The notes beneath the pieces are model-generated. The model was not told the origin of the DNA. It did not search any database and worked only from the letters and a program-made list of their open reading frames with translations. From NCBI GenBank assembly GCA_012839095.1, contig DUOA01000093.1:1-52482 (forward strand): a DNA stretch of 52,482 bases, in the 5' to 3' direction. Position 1 is the stretch's first letter; each line of letters starts with the position of its first letter. The DNA is from Clostridiales bacterium (GTDB taxonomy: Bacteria > Bacillota > Clostridia > Caldicoprobacterales > DTU083). Below, piece by piece: positions 895 through 9,951 of this stretch. Both the position numbers and the translations under genes were made by a program.

Positions 895-1899
895 TTATTT
901 TCCTATATCTTCCGCTCTTCCGCTTAGGGCAGATTTATATATTGCCAGGACAGAGGCCAAAACGGGTATGGACTGACTGATGGGGCAGTAGTATGGTGTG
1001 CCGTCTGTTACCCACTTTGAAAATGCATTCATGCTTCTGCTCAGCGCATGAACTCCTCTTCCTTCCGCCTTGTAACGGGGTACGCGCACACCGGAAAATC
1101 TGACTCCTGGAAAATTTGGACCGGTATATGCAGCTGTTCCCCTCTCCCCATAAAGGGTTATAGAGACAGGCTGTTCCTTTGCTGCTGCCATTGAGCTGGT
1201 TATCTGAAGGATTCCCCCGCAGGAGAGCTCAATTATTCCCATAGCCGTATCTTCTACTTCTACTTCATGGAATTTTGCGTTTCGCATAGTCCCCATTGCA
1301 CGAACAGGCTTGCTGTTAAATGCCCAGAGGAGAATATCCAAAGCATGAGAGCCCTGGGTCAGAAGCGTGCCGCCGCCTGCTTCATCCCTGCTTGCATGCC
1401 ATTTGCTTTCGGTAAAATAGGATTTATCACGGTACCAGGGAATATTGCATATTCCATAATAGAGCCTGCCAAGTTCACCCTTATGTGCAGCCTTAACCAT
1501 TCTGTAGCAGGCATGATCGTATCGATATTGATAGTTTACCCCTATCTTCACCTGATGCTTTTCCGCTAGTTCATTAAGTTCCTTAGCATGGTCCAGAGTG
1601 GTAACGACAGGTTTTTCACATAGTACATGTATTCCTTTTAATATCAAGTCTCTGACTATAGGATAATGCAGGAAATGAGGAACTGCCACGTAAGCTGCAT
1701 CTATCTTCTCATGGGCCAGCAATTGCTTGTAATCCTTATAGGCACCTGCACCTTTATAACGGGCAGCAAATTTGTGAGCCCGCCTTTCATCCGAATCTGC
1801 AAAAGCTGTAAATTCTATACTTCCGTCTATTTTTGTAAGCAGCGTCATGTATTTGGTAATGTCTCCACAGCCAATAACGCCCATCCGCAGTTTTTTCAT
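895..1899 (-). CDS. Gfo/Idh/MocA family oxidoreductase
   Basis: NAD(P)-dependent sugar or cyclitol dehydrogenase of 334 residues, the usual length. The N-terminal Rossmann fold shows GVIGCGDI at residues 7-14, the family EKP motif is at 95-97 (the Lys is a usual catalytic residue), and GSHALDILLW at 183-192 supplies the conserved His and Asp of the C-terminal substrate domain. The start codon overlaps the stop of the upstream ThuA-like gene as ATGA, so the two are translationally coupled. In rhizobia the adjacent pair thuA-thuB is the same combination, and ThuB oxidises disaccharides to 3-keto derivatives. By analogy, and only as inference, this enzyme may oxidise a sugar brought in by the GPH transporter upstream. 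The exact substrate cannot be read from sequence. Confidence 0.9.
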   Translation of the reverse strand: MKKLRMGVIGCGDITKYMTLLTKIDGSIEFTAFADSDERRAHKFAARYKGAGAYKDYKQLLAHEKIDAAYVAVPHFLHYPIVRDLILKGIHVLCEKPVVTTLDHAKELNELAEKHQVKIGVNYQYRYDHACYRMVKAAHKGELGRLYYGICNIPWYRDKSYFTESKWHASRDEAGGGTLLTQGSHALDILLWAFNSKPVRAMGTMRNAKFHEVEVEDTAMGIIELSCGGILQITSSMAAAKEQPVSITLYGERGTAAYTGPNFPGVRFSGVRVPRYKAEGRGVHALSRSMNAFSKWVTDGTPYYCPISQSIPVLASVLAIYKSALSGRAEDIGK

Positions 1900-2612
1900 A
1901 GTTCATTCACCTGCCTTGTAATCCAACCCAGACCATCATAAATGATTTTTTGTGCCATTTTATTCTCGAAAGTAGCAGCATAATGTCCTAAAGAAAAACA
2001 GAAAACCCGTCCTCCATTTTCCTCTCTTGTCCATGCAACCGGAACTTTTTCTCCTTTATGTTTGCTATACCATAAAATATTGTTTGACAGATCAAAATCA
2101 TGCAGGTAGAGTTCCTCTGTGAACATAAAATAAGCTGATTCATTTCTTTCTATTACCTCCACAGGACCGGGAGGACCATGGCCTTTAAACCTGCTTCCCA
2201 AAATCTTACCATATTCAGGAATGGACTTGAAGGAAGCCAGGGCACCATGCACTGCCATTAATCCACCTCCCCGGGAAAGGAAGCTTTGAATCTTGGTTAA
2301 GAATTCCGAGGCACATGCGGCAGGCAGTTTTTTCTCGTGCATCAACAGGATTATCCCATCAAAATGGCTGTCATGCAATGTTTCAGCTTCCATGATGCGG
2401 ATAAAATCCTCAAAACGGTTTGTAAAGGAAAACTCATAGCTGCCTGTCCTTCCGCCGGAGGAAAATGATAAGAGCATATCGCGAAATCTTTTGCGCACCA
2501 ATAAAGAGGGATGAAACCAGCCCTTGGAAAACACCAGTATCCTTTTTATGTCTGCTGATGATTTTTCTCCCTCAGCTGAGATACTCCGGCCTCCGCCTTC
2601 TATATTCTGCAA
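1896..2612 (-). CDS. ThuA-like protein (trehalose-utilisation family)
   Basis: Protein of up to 238 residues with the ThuA fold, which resembles class I glutamine amidotransferases. Visible family features are the N-terminal strand RILVFSKGWFHP (residues 24-35), FDGIILL (84-90), the GGGLMAVHGALASF segment (115-128), FKGHGPPGPVEV (143-154) and PVAWTREENGGRVFCFSLGH (191-210). The start is a TTG: AGGAGGGG lies nine bases upstream, while the ATG at 2619 is out of frame and only two bases from that site. It is 39 bases downstream of the 618-residue protein gene and overlaps the oxidoreductase gene by four bases. ThuA proteins act with Gfo/Idh dehydrogenases in keto-sugar metabolism; the reaction here is unproven. 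Confidence 0.85.
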   Translation of the reverse strand: MQNIEGGGRSISAEGEKSSADIKRILVFSKGWFHPSLLVRKRFRDMLLSFSSGGRTGSYEFSFTNRFEDFIRIMEAETLHDSHFDGIILLMHEKKLPAACASEFLTKIQSFLSRGGGLMAVHGALASFKSIPEYGKILGSRFKGHGPPGPVEVIERNESAYFMFTEELYLHDFDLSNNILWYSKHKGEKVPVAWTREENGGRVFCFSLGHYAATFENKMAQKIIYDGLGWITRQVNEL

Positions 2613-2651
2613 AACCCATATCCCCTCCTGCAGCAGCTATTAAGCTATTTC

Positions 2652-4508
2652 TTACTGACACGTTCCATGCTCTCTTATCATTTTATCAAAATTAATATAC
2701 AGATAGTTCCCCTTCCATTCTATCCGGATCTCTTTCGGTTTTCTCGGAATCTGCCCGTATGGAGAAATCAGCCTGGGATACTCCAGGTCCATTGTCTGCT
2801 TATCCACTGTAAAGCTCTTTCCATAGATAACCTCATATGAGTGTTTTCCATTGTATGTCAATGTTTTTGTCTGTTGATTAAATTGAATGTCCCTGGACTT
2901 AAGATCCTGGACAAAAGACTCAAAACCGCTGTATTGTGCGGCAGTTCCCAGCTCACAAATCCAGTATGTCACTTTTCCTTTTTGTATCCACTCTGAAGAA
3001 TTGCTTTTATGGTTTTCCAGGGGATAACGACCTGCCAGCATGATATACACATCTTTCAACCGCCCGAATAGATACCTGTCTTCTTTTACCACTTCGTCAA
3101 AAGAATCAGTCGGAAACCATGCATGAGTATAGTATTTACGATCCTTTTCCATAAAGCCTATACGTTTTCTTAAATCATATATGCTTATATGCACATTCTC
3201 ATGCTGTACCGAATAAGGCTGGATACCATTACCTACCCAATATCCCGGGGAAAAATTACGATCAACATCATCAAAGGCAGATGCAGCGGGATGGGTTGTG
3301 AAAACCGTCACTTCCGGAGACAAGGTGGCCTGCCAGATATGCTGCTGATCTCCGAAAGCTCCCGGATGATGAGCCTGAGCTGTAGACAGCATATAGTCTT
3401 TTGTTTTATAAGTATAAGTATTTGCCCGCTGAATTGCTATCCCCTGAGTAACGGGATTCAGAATGCGAACCATAAAAGGAAGAAGACCGGATCGTTTTAG
3501 AATCTTCCTGTTCACTATGTTTAAATCTTTTAGAAAGCTGTTGTTATGCAGCTTCCAGCTTTCAAACATCTCCAGTGTAATCTCTATGGATTCGGGATTA
3601 GTAAAGCTTTCCATCCCCCAAAGGAAAAGCCCTGTCGTATCAAAGTCTTTTAGATCATCGAACTCCTCCCGGATTTCAGACAGGTTCAGCCCCATGGAAT
3701 CACGTATAATTACAGTGTCATGGTCTTTACCTATAGCACCAATGACCCGAGGTAAATCATAGTTTTTCATTAAAAGGTATCCGGAGGAGATACGGGAATA
3801 ATCATATTCATCCCTATGCCTGAATCCCCACACTGCCTGGCTTACATCCAGGATGTCCTGATGCAGGGGATATTTCTTTTGCTTCTCATAACAGCGTCCG
3901 CTGGCAGCGCAAAACAGCCCGTACCAGGAGTGCATAGCCATATCCAGTAAGATCAGATCCAGTATCATCTTGGATTTTATCTTAATTTCTTCCTCCCGGG
4001 CAAAGTCTATCAACAAGCAGAGAGCACCGATATCCTCTTCATAATATGTATTGGAATGCCATTCACTGAAACCGTACCGAAAACGGTATTCCAGCCATCG
4101 GAGAATATGCTCCCTGGCTTTGGTTTTTAGCTGCTTACCGGAAAGAGAGCTGTTGGTAAAAACCTTTTCAGGATATAATTGTCCCGCCAAATATGCTTCG
4201 GATGCGAACAGTATCTGGTGATTCTCCGACCAGAAGCACATACTGTCATCGCCGGGTTCATCCATGAAATACCTGAAGTTGAGCACAGCCTCTTCCATAA
4301 GTGCAATTGTTTTATCACTTAATAAGTAACGATAGCTGTACAAGCAGCGCAGAACGGCAGCCATACGGAAATCAGCGCAGTCAAGCCGCAGGTCTATATA
4401 TTCACACAGATCATGAATAGGTCTTTCGTCAATTTGCTGCCCCTGGTCCAGCAATTTTATGTCTGAAAAACTTTTGGGCCCCATTTTTATTTTCATATCA
4501 GGTTTCAT
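2652..4508 (-). CDS. Unrecognised 618-residue protein, possible alpha-toroid plus beta-sandwich enzyme
   Basis: I do not recognise this family by name. The first roughly 330 residues read as amphipathic helices with many aromatic and charged pairs: FWSENHQILFASEAYLAG near 91-108, a WHSNTYYEED stretch near 151-160, and MHSWYGLFCAASGRCYE near 192-208. That layout resembles an (alpha/alpha) toroid of the kind found in polysaccharide lyases and several glycosidases. The later part (TYTYKTKDYMLSTAQ, then FGDQQHIWQATL near 386-397 and VTVFTTHP) is beta-rich, as in the sandwich domain after lyase toroids. No signal peptide, so probably cytoplasmic. An AAGGTGG site sits 10 bases before the ATG. It lies between a sugar symporter gene and thuA-like gene, so a role in sugar breakdown is likely. 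The enzyme class is inference only. Confidence 0.7.
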   Translation of the reverse strand: MKPDMKIKMGPKSFSDIKLLDQGQQIDERPIHDLCEYIDLRLDCADFRMAAVLRCLYSYRYLLSDKTIALMEEAVLNFRYFMDEPGDDSMCFWSENHQILFASEAYLAGQLYPEKVFTNSSLSGKQLKTKAREHILRWLEYRFRYGFSEWHSNTYYEEDIGALCLLIDFAREEEIKIKSKMILDLILLDMAMHSWYGLFCAASGRCYEKQKKYPLHQDILDVSQAVWGFRHRDEYDYSRISSGYLLMKNYDLPRVIGAIGKDHDTVIIRDSMGLNLSEIREEFDDLKDFDTTGLFLWGMESFTNPESIEITLEMFESWKLHNNSFLKDLNIVNRKILKRSGLLPFMVRILNPVTQGIAIQRANTYTYKTKDYMLSTAQAHHPGAFGDQQHIWQATLSPEVTVFTTHPAASAFDDVDRNFSPGYWVGNGIQPYSVQHENVHISIYDLRKRIGFMEKDRKYYTHAWFPTDSFDEVVKEDRYLFGRLKDVYIMLAGRYPLENHKSNSSEWIQKGKVTYWICELGTAAQYSGFESFVQDLKSRDIQFNQQTKTLTYNGKHSYEVIYGKSFTVDKQTMDLEYPRLISPYGQIPRKPKEIRIEWKGNYLYINFDKMIREHGTCQ

Positions 4509-4570
4509 ATATACTCTGCCACCTTATAAATCAAAGTAGAACAGGAGTCGTCATGAACTACACTTAACTG

Positions 4571-6010
4571 CTAAATCAACATCTTCTTAAGGGTTTCCAG
4601 CTCTTCAGGAGAAACAGGGTTTTCCGATGCATTACCGCGTTTGTATTCCAAGTACTGCGTAATCTTCTCAGAAGTCTTTTGTTCCAGGGTATATCCTCTG
4701 GCTGCAAACCAGGTAATGCATAGCAACACAAAGGGAATTACCAGAATGATTATTTTTAGTGCCAGTATGAGGGAAGCCGGCTGCTCCATCATGACTGTTT
4801 TGGTTATTCCGTCTTCTATGATGGTTTTCGGCTCAATATACCCGGCAATTTCCAATATAATGGATACAATAAATATACCGATGGCTGATGAAGTTTTTCG
4901 CGATAAGGTCATTATGCCGCTGAATGAGCCTGCGTTCCGCCTGTTAAAAGCCAATTCCCCCACATCGGTTACATCCGGGAACATAATCCAGGGCATAACC
5001 ACACAGCCTGCTATCCCCAGTCCCATGTATACAGCAGTAAAATAAATAACCCAGTTGGGCCAGTTGGGTTGTAATAAGGCCATGAAAAGTATTGCGCTCA
5101 TCCATATAAAGACAGAATTCTTAATTACACCGGATTTACCAATACGGTAGGCTGCCTTAATCACCAGGGGCACGCATACTAATTGGGTAATAAGCAAGGC
5201 TCCCAGCACATAATTCAGTTCCGAAGGGCGCTTCAGATAATAATTCATATAATAGGCAAAGATAGTGGATACAATATCCATAGCCAGAAAAGAAAACAGA
5301 TAAATGAACAATAAAGAACGGAAAATGCGTACCCGGAAGGGTTTAATGAATTCTGTCAATGACCATTTTTCTTCAGCCTGTTCTTCTACAGTCACCCGCT
5401 CTTTGGCAAACAAAAATATCAGCAAGTAAGGAACAGCAAAAAATAATGCAAATGCCAGCGCCATGACCATATACCCGGTTCGAATATCCGGAAAAGCCTT
5501 AACAATTTCTATAGGTGCCACTGCACATATTAAGCTGGCAGCCTGGGAAAAAACCAATCTGGTGCCATTGACAAGAGTGCGTTCCTTAAAATCTATGCTG
5601 ATTTCGCTGCTCATGGCTGAATAAGGAACCATGACAATGGTAGAGACGGTTTTATACAGGACGTAGGCAAACAGCATATAAAAGAAGCGTACCCATTCAT
5701 TTTCGTTGGAAATTGGGTACCAGATCAAGAAGAAGGCTGCCAGGATTCCGAAAAACCCTATCAGAAAATAAGGCCTGCGCCTGCCCCAACGGCTCCGGGT
5801 GCGGTCGGTAATCAGCCCCATCATCGGATCGGATACGGCGTCCCAGATTTGAGCTGCCAGAATAATGATACCTGCCAGAGCCGGTCTTATCCTGACCACG
5901 TCGGTCAGAAAAATTAAGAAGTAAAAGTTGATAATAATCTGCGCTCCGCCGCCGAATAAATCACCGGAGGCAAAGATATAGCGCTCTTTTCTGGAAACCT
6001 TGTTATGCAA
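4571..6010 (-). CDS. GPH-family sugar:cation symporter (MelB type)
   Basis: Membrane transporter of 479 residues with about twelve hydrophobic helices, matching the glycoside-pentoside-hexuronide:cation symporter family of the major facilitator superfamily. The N-terminal helix motif WDAVSDPMMG (56-65) carries Asp57 and Asp61, which line up with the two cation-site aspartates of MelB, and it is followed by the cytoplasmic loop TDRTRSRWGRRRPY (68-81). The start is TTG at 6010, nine bases after AGGGG; no ATG lies near. It is the first gene of a leftward operon with the 618-residue protein, ThuA-like and Gfo/Idh genes. It probably imports the glycoside those enzymes use; the sugar is unknown. 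Confidence 0.9.
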   Translation of the reverse strand: MHNKVSRKERYIFASGDLFGGGAQIIINFYFLIFLTDVVRIRPALAGIIILAAQIWDAVSDPMMGLITDRTRSRWGRRRPYFLIGFFGILAAFFLIWYPISNENEWVRFFYMLFAYVLYKTVSTIVMVPYSAMSSEISIDFKERTLVNGTRLVFSQAASLICAVAPIEIVKAFPDIRTGYMVMALAFALFFAVPYLLIFLFAKERVTVEEQAEEKWSLTEFIKPFRVRIFRSLLFIYLFSFLAMDIVSTIFAYYMNYYLKRPSELNYVLGALLITQLVCVPLVIKAAYRIGKSGVIKNSVFIWMSAILFMALLQPNWPNWVIYFTAVYMGLGIAGCVVMPWIMFPDVTDVGELAFNRRNAGSFSGIMTLSRKTSSAIGIFIVSIILEIAGYIEPKTIIEDGITKTVMMEQPASLILALKIIILVIPFVLLCITWFAARGYTLEQKTSEKITQYLEYKRGNASENPVSPEELETLKKMLI

Positions 6011-6371
6011 AGCGAAAAACCCCTCTCTTATGGAAAGCTTTATGACCGATTATTATAATAATTGCTGTGGGATCTTATAGTGCATGATTGCAGAATCATC
6101 TTTTAAATCCTCTATACAAGCATCAGCAAATCTATTGTATAATTCTATATAATTCTACGAAATAAGCATTTTCCCTCCCTAATACAACATTATTCTGAAA
6201 ATGGGCTTAAACCCTATTTTAAGTTCAATTGGATTAGTAATGATATGATATTTACCCATGCCGGGCAAATTATTGGTTCAGAAAATTTTCTTATTCTTAA
6301 TACCCCCTCCATATTAAAATGCAGGCTCTCGAAAACTCGAGAGCCTGGGAACTGCGCCTTCCTTGTTATAG
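6011..6371. other. Intergenic region between glycosidase and transporter operons
   Basis: This 361-base stretch has no convincing gene. It holds the hairpin terminator of the GH116 gene (6322-6347) and must hold the promoter of the symporter operon, but no good -35/-10 pair could be picked out. TATAAT-like strings occur at several places on the minus strand (for example around 6050-6062, an ATTATTATAATAAT palindrome, and around 6135-6155), so the start point is ambiguous. A tiny four-codon frame behind AGGGAGGG near 6176 is probably chance. No operator with a LacI-type CG centre was seen. Confidence 0.5.
6322..6347 (-). terminator. Hairpin terminator after GH116 gene
   Basis: An 11-base-pair perfect stem (CAGGCTCTCGA and its complement) with a four-base loop lies 25 bases after the GH116 stop. 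On the minus strand it is followed by CATTTTAAT, a modest U-tract. It separates the glycosidase pair from the transporter operon. Confidence 0.65.
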
Positions 6372-8816
6372 TCAACTGAAGTCAACAACCTGATGTGTAT
6401 TCTCAAATATGATCTTTTCTATACTGATTTCACCGCTCACAACATTGACCGAAACCTGCCCGTCTTTAACTTCAACAGTGCCGTATCCGCCGGCTGTACA
6501 TAAGAAGGTCCTGAATTCATTAAGAACACTATTATTTACATACAGGATTCTGTCTACTGCATCATACCTTACACCGGTCAGGCACTGCAGAAAACCGTAC
6601 GAAGACATCGCTCTGGCATACCAATGACCGCACTCATATTCGTTAAATGGGTTTCGCTTTATTCCGTCATATCTGTCTCTGCATGCTTGTTCAATTTCAA
6701 GGCCTTCATCCACATAGCCGAAAGACGCCAAATGGGAAGCAACATGATGCTCTATACCGGTCCAAACCTCGTCACTGTAAACAAAAGGCAGGGAAGGTTT
6801 GCCTCCCTTCGGCCAGGAACACAGGAGAAGCCCGCCCTCATCGCCCACGGCAAAACCAGGCCGCTGGGGATTTTCATGCTCTATCAGGGAGGGTTTGAAA
6901 TTATAACGGTAAACGGACAACAAATGGGATTTCACTTTCTTTGTATCGAGAATCTCGCCCAATCCGCACATCTTGGCAAGCCATGCACCCAGAACACCGT
7001 CAGAAATACAGCCGGTGCCATATTGATACTTAGGTCCTTCCTTATTCAAGAGCCTGACACATTGCTCGTTTTCACCTTCAAAGCTAAGCTTTTGGTGCAA
7101 TGTCTCCCACTCTGTTTCCTGATAAAAGTATTCGCCGTTAAACAGCTTTGTTTCCATATATTCCTTTCCCTTGTCATACAGTTTTCTGTATCGATCAACA
7201 TCTTTGCCCAGCGCTTCTCCTATTTTTACAAAAGCTGTCAGAGCTCCCAGGTAGAAGGATGTGCACATCCCATCCGCTCCCCAGAATTCTATATCATATG
7301 TATTGTGATGCGGCTCTTTTAATACCCCTTCTTCATTTCTATCCCAGGTGGAGATGCAATAGTCCAGACTTTTTTTAATCTTTTCGTAATAGCTTTCCAA
7401 CCAGCCGGTATCTCCGGATATTCTCCACTCCCGATACATTTTCATTATGCCGCCCAACTGGCCGTCAGAAGCTGCATGATATTTATTACCTGATTTTCGG
7501 ATGGGTAAGGATGCCCGAAACTCCTGATGACCGGCCTCATTCTGATTTTCATTGAACTCCGTCTGGCGCAGGCTTCTTTCAAGGGCAGGGAACAGGTGAC
7601 ACATTGCCTGTGCATAATTCCAGACATGGGTACAGGAGCCGGTACAGCATCCGCTGGTATCACAGCAGCCCTCCCATGCCCAGATTCTGCCATCTGTCTG
7701 GCGCAATACTGTTGGGGACTTAAGAATGGTAAGATTGGCACTGACAGAATCAAGTACAACGTCAGGAAGTGTGCTGTCCAGGAAGGTATCACTGAAGAGT
7801 TTGGTTTCCCGGTAAAGCCTGTCATAATTATCGGAAAAATAATTCATTACCGCTTCCACGCCGGTGAACTGCCCTGCGTACCATGGTTTATGGGTTGGTT
7901 TACTGTTTTTTTCAGATCCACAAGAACATGAACACGAGCAGGATTCCTCTTCTTCTTCATATCCATGCCGCAGCTTAGTGGTAGGCACATACCAGGTCAG
8001 CAGAAGTTCTATTTTCTTTTGCTCACCGGGTTTGAGAACAAATGGAACAGCAATTGAACCTCCCGGGCTTAAGTTACCGGGATTGCCTTCGTCCTTAACT
8101 ACACCGGCCCTGATGTCATTCCATAGCATTGTCAGAATATCAAACCAGCCGCCATCAAACCAATTGGTATTTATCTTTGCATCATTATCCCTGACAGCTG
8201 CATAGAAGTATCCTTCTGCTTCAGGCGCATCATCCTGAGGAAGCTGAGCCAGTATAAATCCGTTTTCTTTCTTGTAAACATGAGCCTTCTCATTATTATT
8301 GAACTTCATGAAGTTAAATGCATTAAAATAGTAGACAGCCTCCAGCGCCTGATTTGAGTTATTGGTAAATATGTACTCAAGTGATGCTGCAGGCAGGCTG
8401 GAATCATCCTCATTCAGCGGCAGGAAGGGACTGTAGCCAACCAGCTTTACATCAAGAGGCAGTTTATCATCCTGCAGATTTATCTCCGCAAAGGGGAACC
8501 TTGCGGTAAAGTCATTTGACTTCATTCTTGGCAATCCGTAGTTCTTTCCCGTAAGTCCGTTGCCCATATCTGCCCTACTTGTACTGCCGAATATCTTCCT
8601 CCGGGGCACCTGACCCTCAAGCACCCTGACAAGGTTCTCCGGGTGATTCCTTACACAGACTGCTGAAAAGACATTTGGTTCATTATCAACAGCCGGTTCA
8701 TTCCTGAGAGAAAACTGACTCAGCATGCCGCTGCCTTCCAGACAGAACATGCCTGCTCCAATTCCACCAAGTGGATAAGATATCATATTCAGAGCTTCTC
8801 CTGTATACCTTTTCAT
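6372..8816 (-). CDS. GH116 (DUF608/GBA2-like) beta-glycosidase
   Basis: Retaining beta-glycosidase of 814 residues related to bacterial GH116 enzymes and human bile-acid glucosylceramidase GBA2. The N-terminal GBA2_N domain begins with MISYPLGGIGAGMFCLEGSG; the C-terminal toroid (DUF608) starts near residue 350. By comparison with characterised members, the nucleophile should be Glu382 in WAWEGC and the acid/base Asp508 in HHNTYDIEFW. The Cys-rich stretch after Glu382 (GCCDTSGCCTGSCTHVWNYAQ) is typical of bacterial DUF608 proteins. An unusual insert at 287-309 holds four glutamates then a CSCSCSC run. No signal peptide, so likely cytoplasmic. GGGAGG precedes the ATG. It is 52 bases downstream of the GH172-like gene and probably co-transcribed. 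Substrate could be a beta-glucoside, beta-xyloside or related glycoside. Confidence 0.9.
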   Translation of the reverse strand: MKRYTGEALNMISYPLGGIGAGMFCLEGSGMLSQFSLRNEPAVDNEPNVFSAVCVRNHPENLVRVLEGQVPRRKIFGSTSRADMGNGLTGKNYGLPRMKSNDFTARFPFAEINLQDDKLPLDVKLVGYSPFLPLNEDDSSLPAASLEYIFTNNSNQALEAVYYFNAFNFMKFNNNEKAHVYKKENGFILAQLPQDDAPEAEGYFYAAVRDNDAKINTNWFDGGWFDILTMLWNDIRAGVVKDEGNPGNLSPGGSIAVPFVLKPGEQKKIELLLTWYVPTTKLRHGYEEEEESCSCSCSCGSEKNSKPTHKPWYAGQFTGVEAVMNYFSDNYDRLYRETKLFSDTFLDSTLPDVVLDSVSANLTILKSPTVLRQTDGRIWAWEGCCDTSGCCTGSCTHVWNYAQAMCHLFPALERSLRQTEFNENQNEAGHQEFRASLPIRKSGNKYHAASDGQLGGIMKMYREWRISGDTGWLESYYEKIKKSLDYCISTWDRNEEGVLKEPHHNTYDIEFWGADGMCTSFYLGALTAFVKIGEALGKDVDRYRKLYDKGKEYMETKLFNGEYFYQETEWETLHQKLSFEGENEQCVRLLNKEGPKYQYGTGCISDGVLGAWLAKMCGLGEILDTKKVKSHLLSVYRYNFKPSLIEHENPQRPGFAVGDEGGLLLCSWPKGGKPSLPFVYSDEVWTGIEHHVASHLASFGYVDEGLEIEQACRDRYDGIKRNPFNEYECGHWYARAMSSYGFLQCLTGVRYDAVDRILYVNNSVLNEFRTFLCTAGGYGTVEVKDGQVSVNVVSGEISIEKIIFENTHQVVDFS

Positions 8817-8868
8817 ACCTTGAATCCTCCCTTCTCAGCAACTCAGATACAATCACATGCTAAATTTA

Positions 8869-9951
8869 TTAAATTATTTCCAGGTAATCCCGATCAGGCA
8901 ATTCAGGCAGTTTAAGAGACGGCAGCGTCTGATACCAGTATGCGACAGAAGAAATATCATCCTGCAAGGGCAGGTATTTTCCATAGCTGCGCCATCCCAA
9001 AGCCTGGATTGTAACCCTGATATCCTCCTCAAACCTAATAGGATCCATAATATGCCACCTGTATAAGCCAAACCTTTGCTGAGACTGATATACTCCATCC
9101 GGCCTGATTACCTGATGCAGACCTGCATAGGGAGTAGTATATTCCTGATATTGCTTTGTCTTCGGGTTCTCAAAATTATATGAACCGCAGAAATAATCCT
9201 CTGTTCCGGTTCCACAGATGGTAGGAAACTCCTTATCACCGTCCAGGTAAAATTTTATCTCGCCTTCTCCCCACCATCCGCAGTTATTGACACCCCATGC
9301 CATGTATGTACCTACATAATGCCCCTGCCCTTTCACATTATCGAGAATTGTGTATACACTCTTATATGGCAGCGGATTCACTCTTCTGAAATTTGCATGA
9401 AAATAAGCACAGTCATCAGGTACCTCAGTTAATGTATAGTTAATCTGATAATATAATATCATATCTTCATCTGCAATATTGGACATGGTTATTCTGCATC
9501 TCTTTCTGAAGGGCATTTCCCAATAACAATTGAAAGCACTTCCCGGGTTTACACAAACAGCCAAAGAGCTAAGCTGCGCATAACTTCCCCAGCCTGATGC
9601 AAAGAAATCTCCCACAGGACATTCAACTGATGGGTGTTCCTGATCATCCCAATATATTCTCAGGATGCTGAATCTCCAATTGCCGGTAGGTGTCATCCAT
9701 ATCTGCTGAATTGCGCCGGGCCCTTCTATATCAGCAAGTACAAAAGTTTCTCCGGCCTCAATTCGGACTGAAGGAGAAATTTTCCAACCCTGTCCTAAGT
9801 CCCTTGCGCAACTTGCTCCGGTTCCCTCAGTAGCCATTCCGCCCTTTGATTTTTCTCCGGTAAAATTCTCAGGACTGATGGAACGAGTCTTCGCCCTTGA
9901 AAGTCTTGATAAATTGCCCAGATTCAGGCCAAGTCCGTTAAATTGTGTCAT
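8869..9951 (-). CDS. DUF2961 / GH172-like glycosidase
   Basis: Protein of 360 residues with the DUF2961 fold, now classed as GH172, whose characterised members include a difructose-dianhydride synthase/hydrolase and D-arabinofuranosidases. Seen here: FVLADIEGPGAIQQIWMT near 70-87, the CPVGDFFASGWG segment near 111-122, GEGEIKFYLDGD at 228-239 and the hallmark GTGTEDYF at 247-254, whose Glu251 is a likely active-site acid. There is no signal peptide, so it acts inside the cell. AAGGAGGAAG precedes the ATG and a good promoter lies at 9988-10017. It is the first gene of a two-gene operon with the GH116 enzyme, suggesting that the pair trims an imported glycoside carrying a furanoside and a beta-linked sugar. 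The substrate is inference. Confidence 0.88.
   Translation of the reverse strand: MTQFNGLGLNLGNLSRLSRAKTRSISPENFTGEKSKGGMATEGTGASCARDLGQGWKISPSVRIEAGETFVLADIEGPGAIQQIWMTPTGNWRFSILRIYWDDQEHPSVECPVGDFFASGWGSYAQLSSLAVCVNPGSAFNCYWEMPFRKRCRITMSNIADEDMILYYQINYTLTEVPDDCAYFHANFRRVNPLPYKSVYTILDNVKGQGHYVGTYMAWGVNNCGWWGEGEIKFYLDGDKEFPTICGTGTEDYFCGSYNFENPKTKQYQEYTTPYAGLHQVIRPDGVYQSQQRFGLYRWHIMDPIRFEEDIRVTIQALGWRSYGKYLPLQDDISSVAYWYQTLPSLKLPELPDRDYLEII

Follow-up and report, generated by a model that had tools for sequence, protein, structure and literature searches.

The window analyzed here, a stretch of 52,482 bp, is the whole of contig 33 of a Clostridiales assembly of 2.74 Mb in 169 contigs (96% complete). 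Six genes on its minus strand are transcribed in the order GH172, GH116 and then, after a gap of 361 nt, GPH, u618, ThuA and Gfo/Idh; ORF calls and a Pfam scan bore out the positions and gene families given for them in a preliminary description of this DNA. The first two encode a GH172/DUF2961 protein (positions 8869–9951; Pfam, 4.5e-98) and a GH116/DUF608 protein (6372–8816; Pfam, 4e-53 and 4e-40) and are 52 nt apart. A terminator-like hairpin, stronger than any other in the region, lies directly after GH116 (6322–6347, read as 6347–6322 on the minus strand); its stem has 11 pairs, 7 of them GC, and its tail is T-rich.

Beyond the hairpin follow a GPH (glycoside-pentoside-hexuronide):cation symporter (4571–6010; PF13347, 2.5e-75; 218 bits against the NCBIfam model TIGR00792 gph, whose cut-off is 231), a 618 aa protein that we call u618 (2652–4508; no family in Pfam at E ≤ 1), a ThuA-domain protein (1896–2612; PF06283, 2.6e-22) and a Gfo/Idh/MocA oxidoreductase (895–1899; PF01408, 1.3e-27). 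The GPH and u618 genes are separated by 62 nt and u618 and ThuA by 39 nt, and the ThuA and Gfo/Idh genes overlap by the 4 nt ATGA, as had been described. In a simple hydropathy test none of the five soluble proteins showed a strongly hydrophobic stretch at its N-terminus, and by that test the earlier statement that the enzymes lack signal peptides and are intracellular holds. Positions 1–867 of the window encode a membrane protein, truncated by the contig end, whose N-terminus is signal-like and which matches no family.

Two neighboring operons

A scan of the GTDB species genomes found the u618 family at no fewer than 541 loci (at least 541), in both bacteria and archaea; the best 80 of these loci were kept, 79 of them distinct, and genes within six genes of u618 were counted at 78 loci. 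The Clostridia loci L034–L041 carry all or some of the GPH-u618-ThuA-Gfo/Idh cassette, with its genes variously arranged: GPH-u618-ThuA-Gfo in L034 and L035 (likewise in L036, which is cut by a contig end), ThuA-Gfo-GPH-u618 in L037, ThuA-Gfo-u618-GPH in L038, and ThuA-Gfo-u618 in L039 and L040. The linkage of the four genes is far beyond chance since it recurs, rearranged, in other genomes, and they form a widespread, undescribed cassette, probably for sugar acids.

GH172 and GH116 are absent from these Clostridia cassette loci, and neither occurs within six genes of u618 at any of the 78 sampled loci. In the nearest relative the cassette and its flank (genes for proteins of 375 and 903 aa and a DHH pyrophosphatase, 65–79% identical) are syntenic with the window, and two unrelated genes replace the window's GH pair and a Dps-like gene. 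The GH172 homologs of the cassette relatives (49–83% identical) and their closest GH116 (61% identical) lie on other contigs among unrelated neighbors. The preliminary description had assigned all six families to one pathway that dismantles a single imported glycoside, and the genes are indeed adjacent, on the same strand and all intracellular. Homologous neighborhoods, however, rarely hold the six families together, and the count of 0/78, the hairpin between the operons, the syntenic relative without the GH pair, the orthologs located elsewhere and the fact that GH172 and GH116 have a described pathway of their own, D-arabinan breakdown (PMC10509167), make that reading very improbable. On linkage, synteny and the hairpin we reject a single six-gene pathway, and the two operons are very likely independent of each other. 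The accompanying claim that no described pathway matches these genes is wrong for GH172 and GH116.

The GH172-GH116 pair

Among PDB sequences the GH172 protein matches ExoMA1 (8ic8, 8.6e-138, 462 bits) far better than alphaFFase1 (1.5e-42, 149 bits), which makes a difructose-anhydride enzyme the less likely assignment. The catalytic residues of alphaFFase1 are E270 and E291 (PMC8605356), with which E229 (acid/base) and E251 (nucleophile) of the window protein align; with this Glu pair and its greater closeness to ExoMA1 than to alphaFFase1 the protein falls in the ExoMA1 clade. The GH116 protein matches ExoMA2 (8ic6) at 2.6e-110 and beta-glucosidases at about 1e-8. In ExoMA2, a member of GH116 subfamily 4, the nucleophile is E431 and the acid/base D557, and R483 and H446 replace beta-glucosidase residues (PMC10509167); the window protein keeps all of these as E382 (nucleophile), D508 (acid/base), R434 and H397 (specificity), and so belongs to the same subfamily. 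Assignment as a beta-glucosidase was rejected, since the E-value of the ExoMA2 match is lower by ~100 orders of magnitude and the ExoMA2-type residues are kept.

ExoMA1 and ExoMA2, described in 2023, have no signal sequences and complete the breakdown of D-arabinan inside the cell, downstream of the GH183 endo-enzymes and of import (PMC10509167). By homology, the window's GH172 is likely an exo-alpha-D-arabinofuranosidase and its GH116 an exo-beta-D-arabinofuranosidase, and the two would act inside the cell in D-arabinan use. The pair is of a known kind, which trims D-arabinose from mycobacterial-type polysaccharides. In view of the homology to ExoMA1 and ExoMA2, the conserved residues, and the GH183 and ABC importer genes in the same genome, it most likely serves imported D-arabino-oligosaccharides. 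Those genes lie at L194 (G000:C107:1-14000), where a GH183 endo-D-arabinanase, an ABC importer, a LacI-like regulator and a further DUF2961 gene are found. The window pair resembles the Microbacterium arabinogalactanolyticum D-arabinan locus (GH183, ExoMA1, ExoMA2; PMC10509167) in being closest to ExoMA1 and ExoMA2, in the residues kept and in the absence of signal peptides, but differs in being unlinked to GH183 or its ABC importer.

In a class-wide sample of Clostridia, close homologs of the pair adjoin in only one other genome, G241, at a locus (L185, G241:C1:1566000-1585999) with GH183, GH116, GH172, a GH3-like gene, a second GH172, a PfkB kinase, a LacI-like regulator and an ABC importer. 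GH183 is linked to the pair there, whereas in the window's genome it lies apart from the pair on contig 107. The latter genome has six DUF2961 copies and three clear DUF608 copies. A cluster of a two-component regulator, an ABC importer and a DUF2961 protein of 435–461 aa also recurs (L177, L178, L181), in relatives as well as on the window genome's contig 14, with GH116 added to it in L177 and L178.

The u618 family

No family match to u618 was found in Pfam (E ≤ 1), NCBIfam (noise only), PHROG or PDB sequences, so that membership in a family of any of the four was rejected and its earlier placement outside recognized families is upheld. By comparison with these four resources, and so with those CAZy families that have a Pfam model or a structure, the family looks undescribed. 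Among the best 80 of the 541 loci, it occurs in Bacillota, Mycoplasmatota, Spirochaetota, Chloroflexota, Bacteroidota, Actinomycetota, Planctomycetota and others; a homolog is present in a Lokiarchaeota MAG (L122), and relatives are also carried on Haladaptatus plasmids and on rhizobial plasmids. On the Haladaptatus plasmids (L054) u618 adjoins SPI and Gfo/Idh genes. At L042 (G019:C91) the matches, at about 7884–8656, are to a decayed u618 that survives as two fragments; an in-frame stop interrupts it and its middle is missing. A hydrophobic N-terminus is present in 34 of 71 family members, and anchored and cytosolic copies are paired at some loci (L065, L112).

An AlphaFold2 model of u618 made from an alignment of 71 sequences (pLDDT 93.5, pTM 0.94) has an (alpha/alpha)n toroid followed by an antiparallel beta-sheet domain, the two elements that define the toroid-lyase fold. 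All 16 Foldseek matches in the PDB at E ≤ 1e-3 are either dermatan sulfate epimerase or lyases of the PL17, PL12, PL15, PL35/GAGase, PL8 and related types. The TM-scores are low (best 0.34), so the kinship of u618 to the toroid lyases, as judged from the model, is remote. Neither a Pfam model, a PDB sequence profile nor profile-profile comparison detected sequence homology to the Hepar_II_III lyases, and a profile-profile link to these proteins was accordingly dropped.

In the family alignment N96-H97 and Y155/Y156 are invariant, and H390 and H406 are present in 90% or more of the members; N96/H97, Y155 or Y156, and H390 or H406 are thus candidate catalytic residues. About 59 residues separate the Asn-His from the Tyr-Tyr motif; in solved toroid lyases a Tyr stands 52–57 residues beyond the Asn/His neutralizer, and a His lies in the beta domain (published positions). 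The overall predicted fold is that of the toroid lyases of PL12, PL15, PL17, PL21, PL35 and PL39, and the Asn-His…Tyr pattern resembles theirs in spacing; u618 differs from them in its low TM-scores and in having no detected sequence or profile homology to them.

The neighborhoods show the pattern expected of oligo-uronide lyases. Among the 78 loci u618 is accompanied by GPH in 40, GH88/GH105 in 40, an SPI-type isomerase in 19, KduD-like proteins in 11, a sulfatase, ThuA and Gfo/Idh in 8 each, KduI and IclR in 5 each, KdgK in 4 and KDPG aldolase in 3. Complete unsaturated-uronate modules accompany it at L065, L071, L087 and L112, and the rhizobial and Thioclava relatives adjoin GH88, GH28, KduI and KduD. 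An order u618, SPI, GPH, u618, GH88 is repeated in Acholeplasma-type genomes (L064, L067, L069, L076, L083, L089).

Since no sequence homology is detected and the TM-scores are low, an assignment of activity has to rest on fold and genomic context, and these indicate that u618 is probably an intracellular uronide lyase. It could instead be a uronyl C5-epimerase or a hydrolase that shares the toroid fold, as the presence of human dermatan sulfate epimerase (1.7e-4) among the Foldseek matches and weak matches to GH146 and GH92 might suggest; but 15 of the 16 top matches are lyases and the neighboring GH88/GH105 normally takes an unsaturated product, and we consider this quite unlikely.

ThuA and Gfo/Idh in the place of GH88

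ThuA is conserved together with Gfo/Idh and u618, and the loci that have the three occupy two distinct branches within the tree of u618, each near GH88-bearing relatives. None of the seven such loci has GH88 (the probability by random drawing is about 0.005, a figure weakened by the relatedness of the loci). At L121, a Bacteroidota locus of different context, GH88, ThuA and Gfo are all nearby. At the genome level, GH88 was not found above a weak threshold in 7 of 10 u618-bearing genomes, that of the window included, though MAG incompleteness may contribute. A GH88/GH105 plus KduI module is likewise absent from the window's genome, in which GH88 was not found; its sole KduI-family match is iolB-like, sits in an inositol-type cluster and was set aside as a KduI. 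The genome does encode a KDPG aldolase. The window shares with unsaturated-uronide modules (toroid lyase, GH88/GH105, KduI/KduD) a u618 whose homologs are found with GPH, GH88, KduI, KduD and KdgK in relatives, and departs from them in that its clade has ThuA and Gfo/Idh for GH88, its lyase-like family has no sequence match, and its genome has no clear KduI. The ThuA-Gfo/Idh groups are few, and this replacement of GH88 in two separate branches suggests that the second step takes a 3-keto route.

The best solved relative of the window Gfo/Idh is DgpA (7xr9, 7.7e-31) and the fourth is the P2B11 glucuronide-3-dehydrogenase (8tdi, 4.5e-24); these are among its nearest solved relatives, but the match is distant and their substrates are not transferable to it. 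E95-K96-P97, Y123-Q124-Y125 and G183-S184-H185 are conserved. Against the curated NCBIfam 3-dehydrogenase models it scores far below cut-off (BT_2158_fam, 45.8 of 750 bits; BT_2159_fam, 23.7 of 650), and the resemblance is at the superfamily level only. We infer an enzyme of the glycoside/glucuronide 3-dehydrogenase type, with ThuA processing the 3-keto intermediate. The rhizobial thu operon uses trehalose via 3-ketotrehalose; the window has the ThuA and Gfo/Idh pair of that 3-keto-disaccharide pathway, here translationally overlapping, but its transporter is a GPH symporter, not an ABC importer, and a lyase-fold protein is linked to the pair.

These relationships also allow a pathway in which Gfo/Idh makes a 3-keto sugar from which u618 eliminates the aglycone, instead of acting at C4-C5 of a uronic acid, with ThuA as hydratase/isomerase. 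The closeness of Gfo/Idh to DgpA and its nearness to glucuronide-3-dehydrogenase would fit this, as would the SPI enzymes at 19/78 u618 loci and an SPI-Gfo-ThuA-Gfo-u618 order at two loci. At those two loci (L109, L126) the operon comprises SPI, a levoglucosan-dehydrogenase-like Gfo/Idh (NF052479, 395.6 bits, below cut-off), ThuA, Gfo/Idh and a membrane-anchored u618. Most u618 genes, however, lack Gfo/ThuA neighbors and are accompanied by GH88, some of them by Kdu enzymes, and the candidate catalytic columns are identical in the GH88 and ThuA/Gfo groups; action of u618 on a 3-keto sugar is therefore unlikely.

For the locus as a whole we somewhat favor a reading in which one of the two independent operons is a uronide-catabolic cassette and the other the D-arabinofuranosidase pair. 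In the former, the GPH symporter would import an oligosaccharide or glycoside containing uronic acid, and u618 would split it by beta-elimination to leave an unsaturated uronyl residue. In related loci with a recognizable second enzyme, it is mostly a GH88/GH105 hydrolase that would remove this residue, with Kdu enzymes acting next in some; in the window and its relatives, where ThuA and Gfo/Idh take the position of GH88, Gfo/Idh would oxidize the uronyl residue at C3, and the 3-keto product would be released by ThuA. On the strength of the loci without GH88, its absence at the genome level and the nearness of Gfo/Idh to DgpA and glucuronide-3-dehydrogenase, we propose, tentatively, that Gfo/Idh and ThuA do the job of GH88, with oxidation at C3 and elimination taking the place of its hydration. 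A bolder combined reading, to which we give less than an even chance, is that u618 is a new phylum-spanning polysaccharide lyase family and the cassette a hybrid lyase/3-keto pathway, in which ThuA-Gfo/Idh would stand in for the usual GH88/GH105 step, oxidizing the unsaturated uronyl residue at its allylic C3 hydroxyl and eliminating the aglycone.

D-arabinofuranosidases similar to those that act on mycobacterial walls thus appear to occur in Clostridia also. For the cassette, an unnamed family of the breadth given above gains a testable function, that of uronide lyase. The cassette would link two routes of glycoside breakdown that are usually considered separately, one lyase-based and the other 3-keto-based, and provides a setting in which a defined candidate substrate is available for assays of the role of ThuA.
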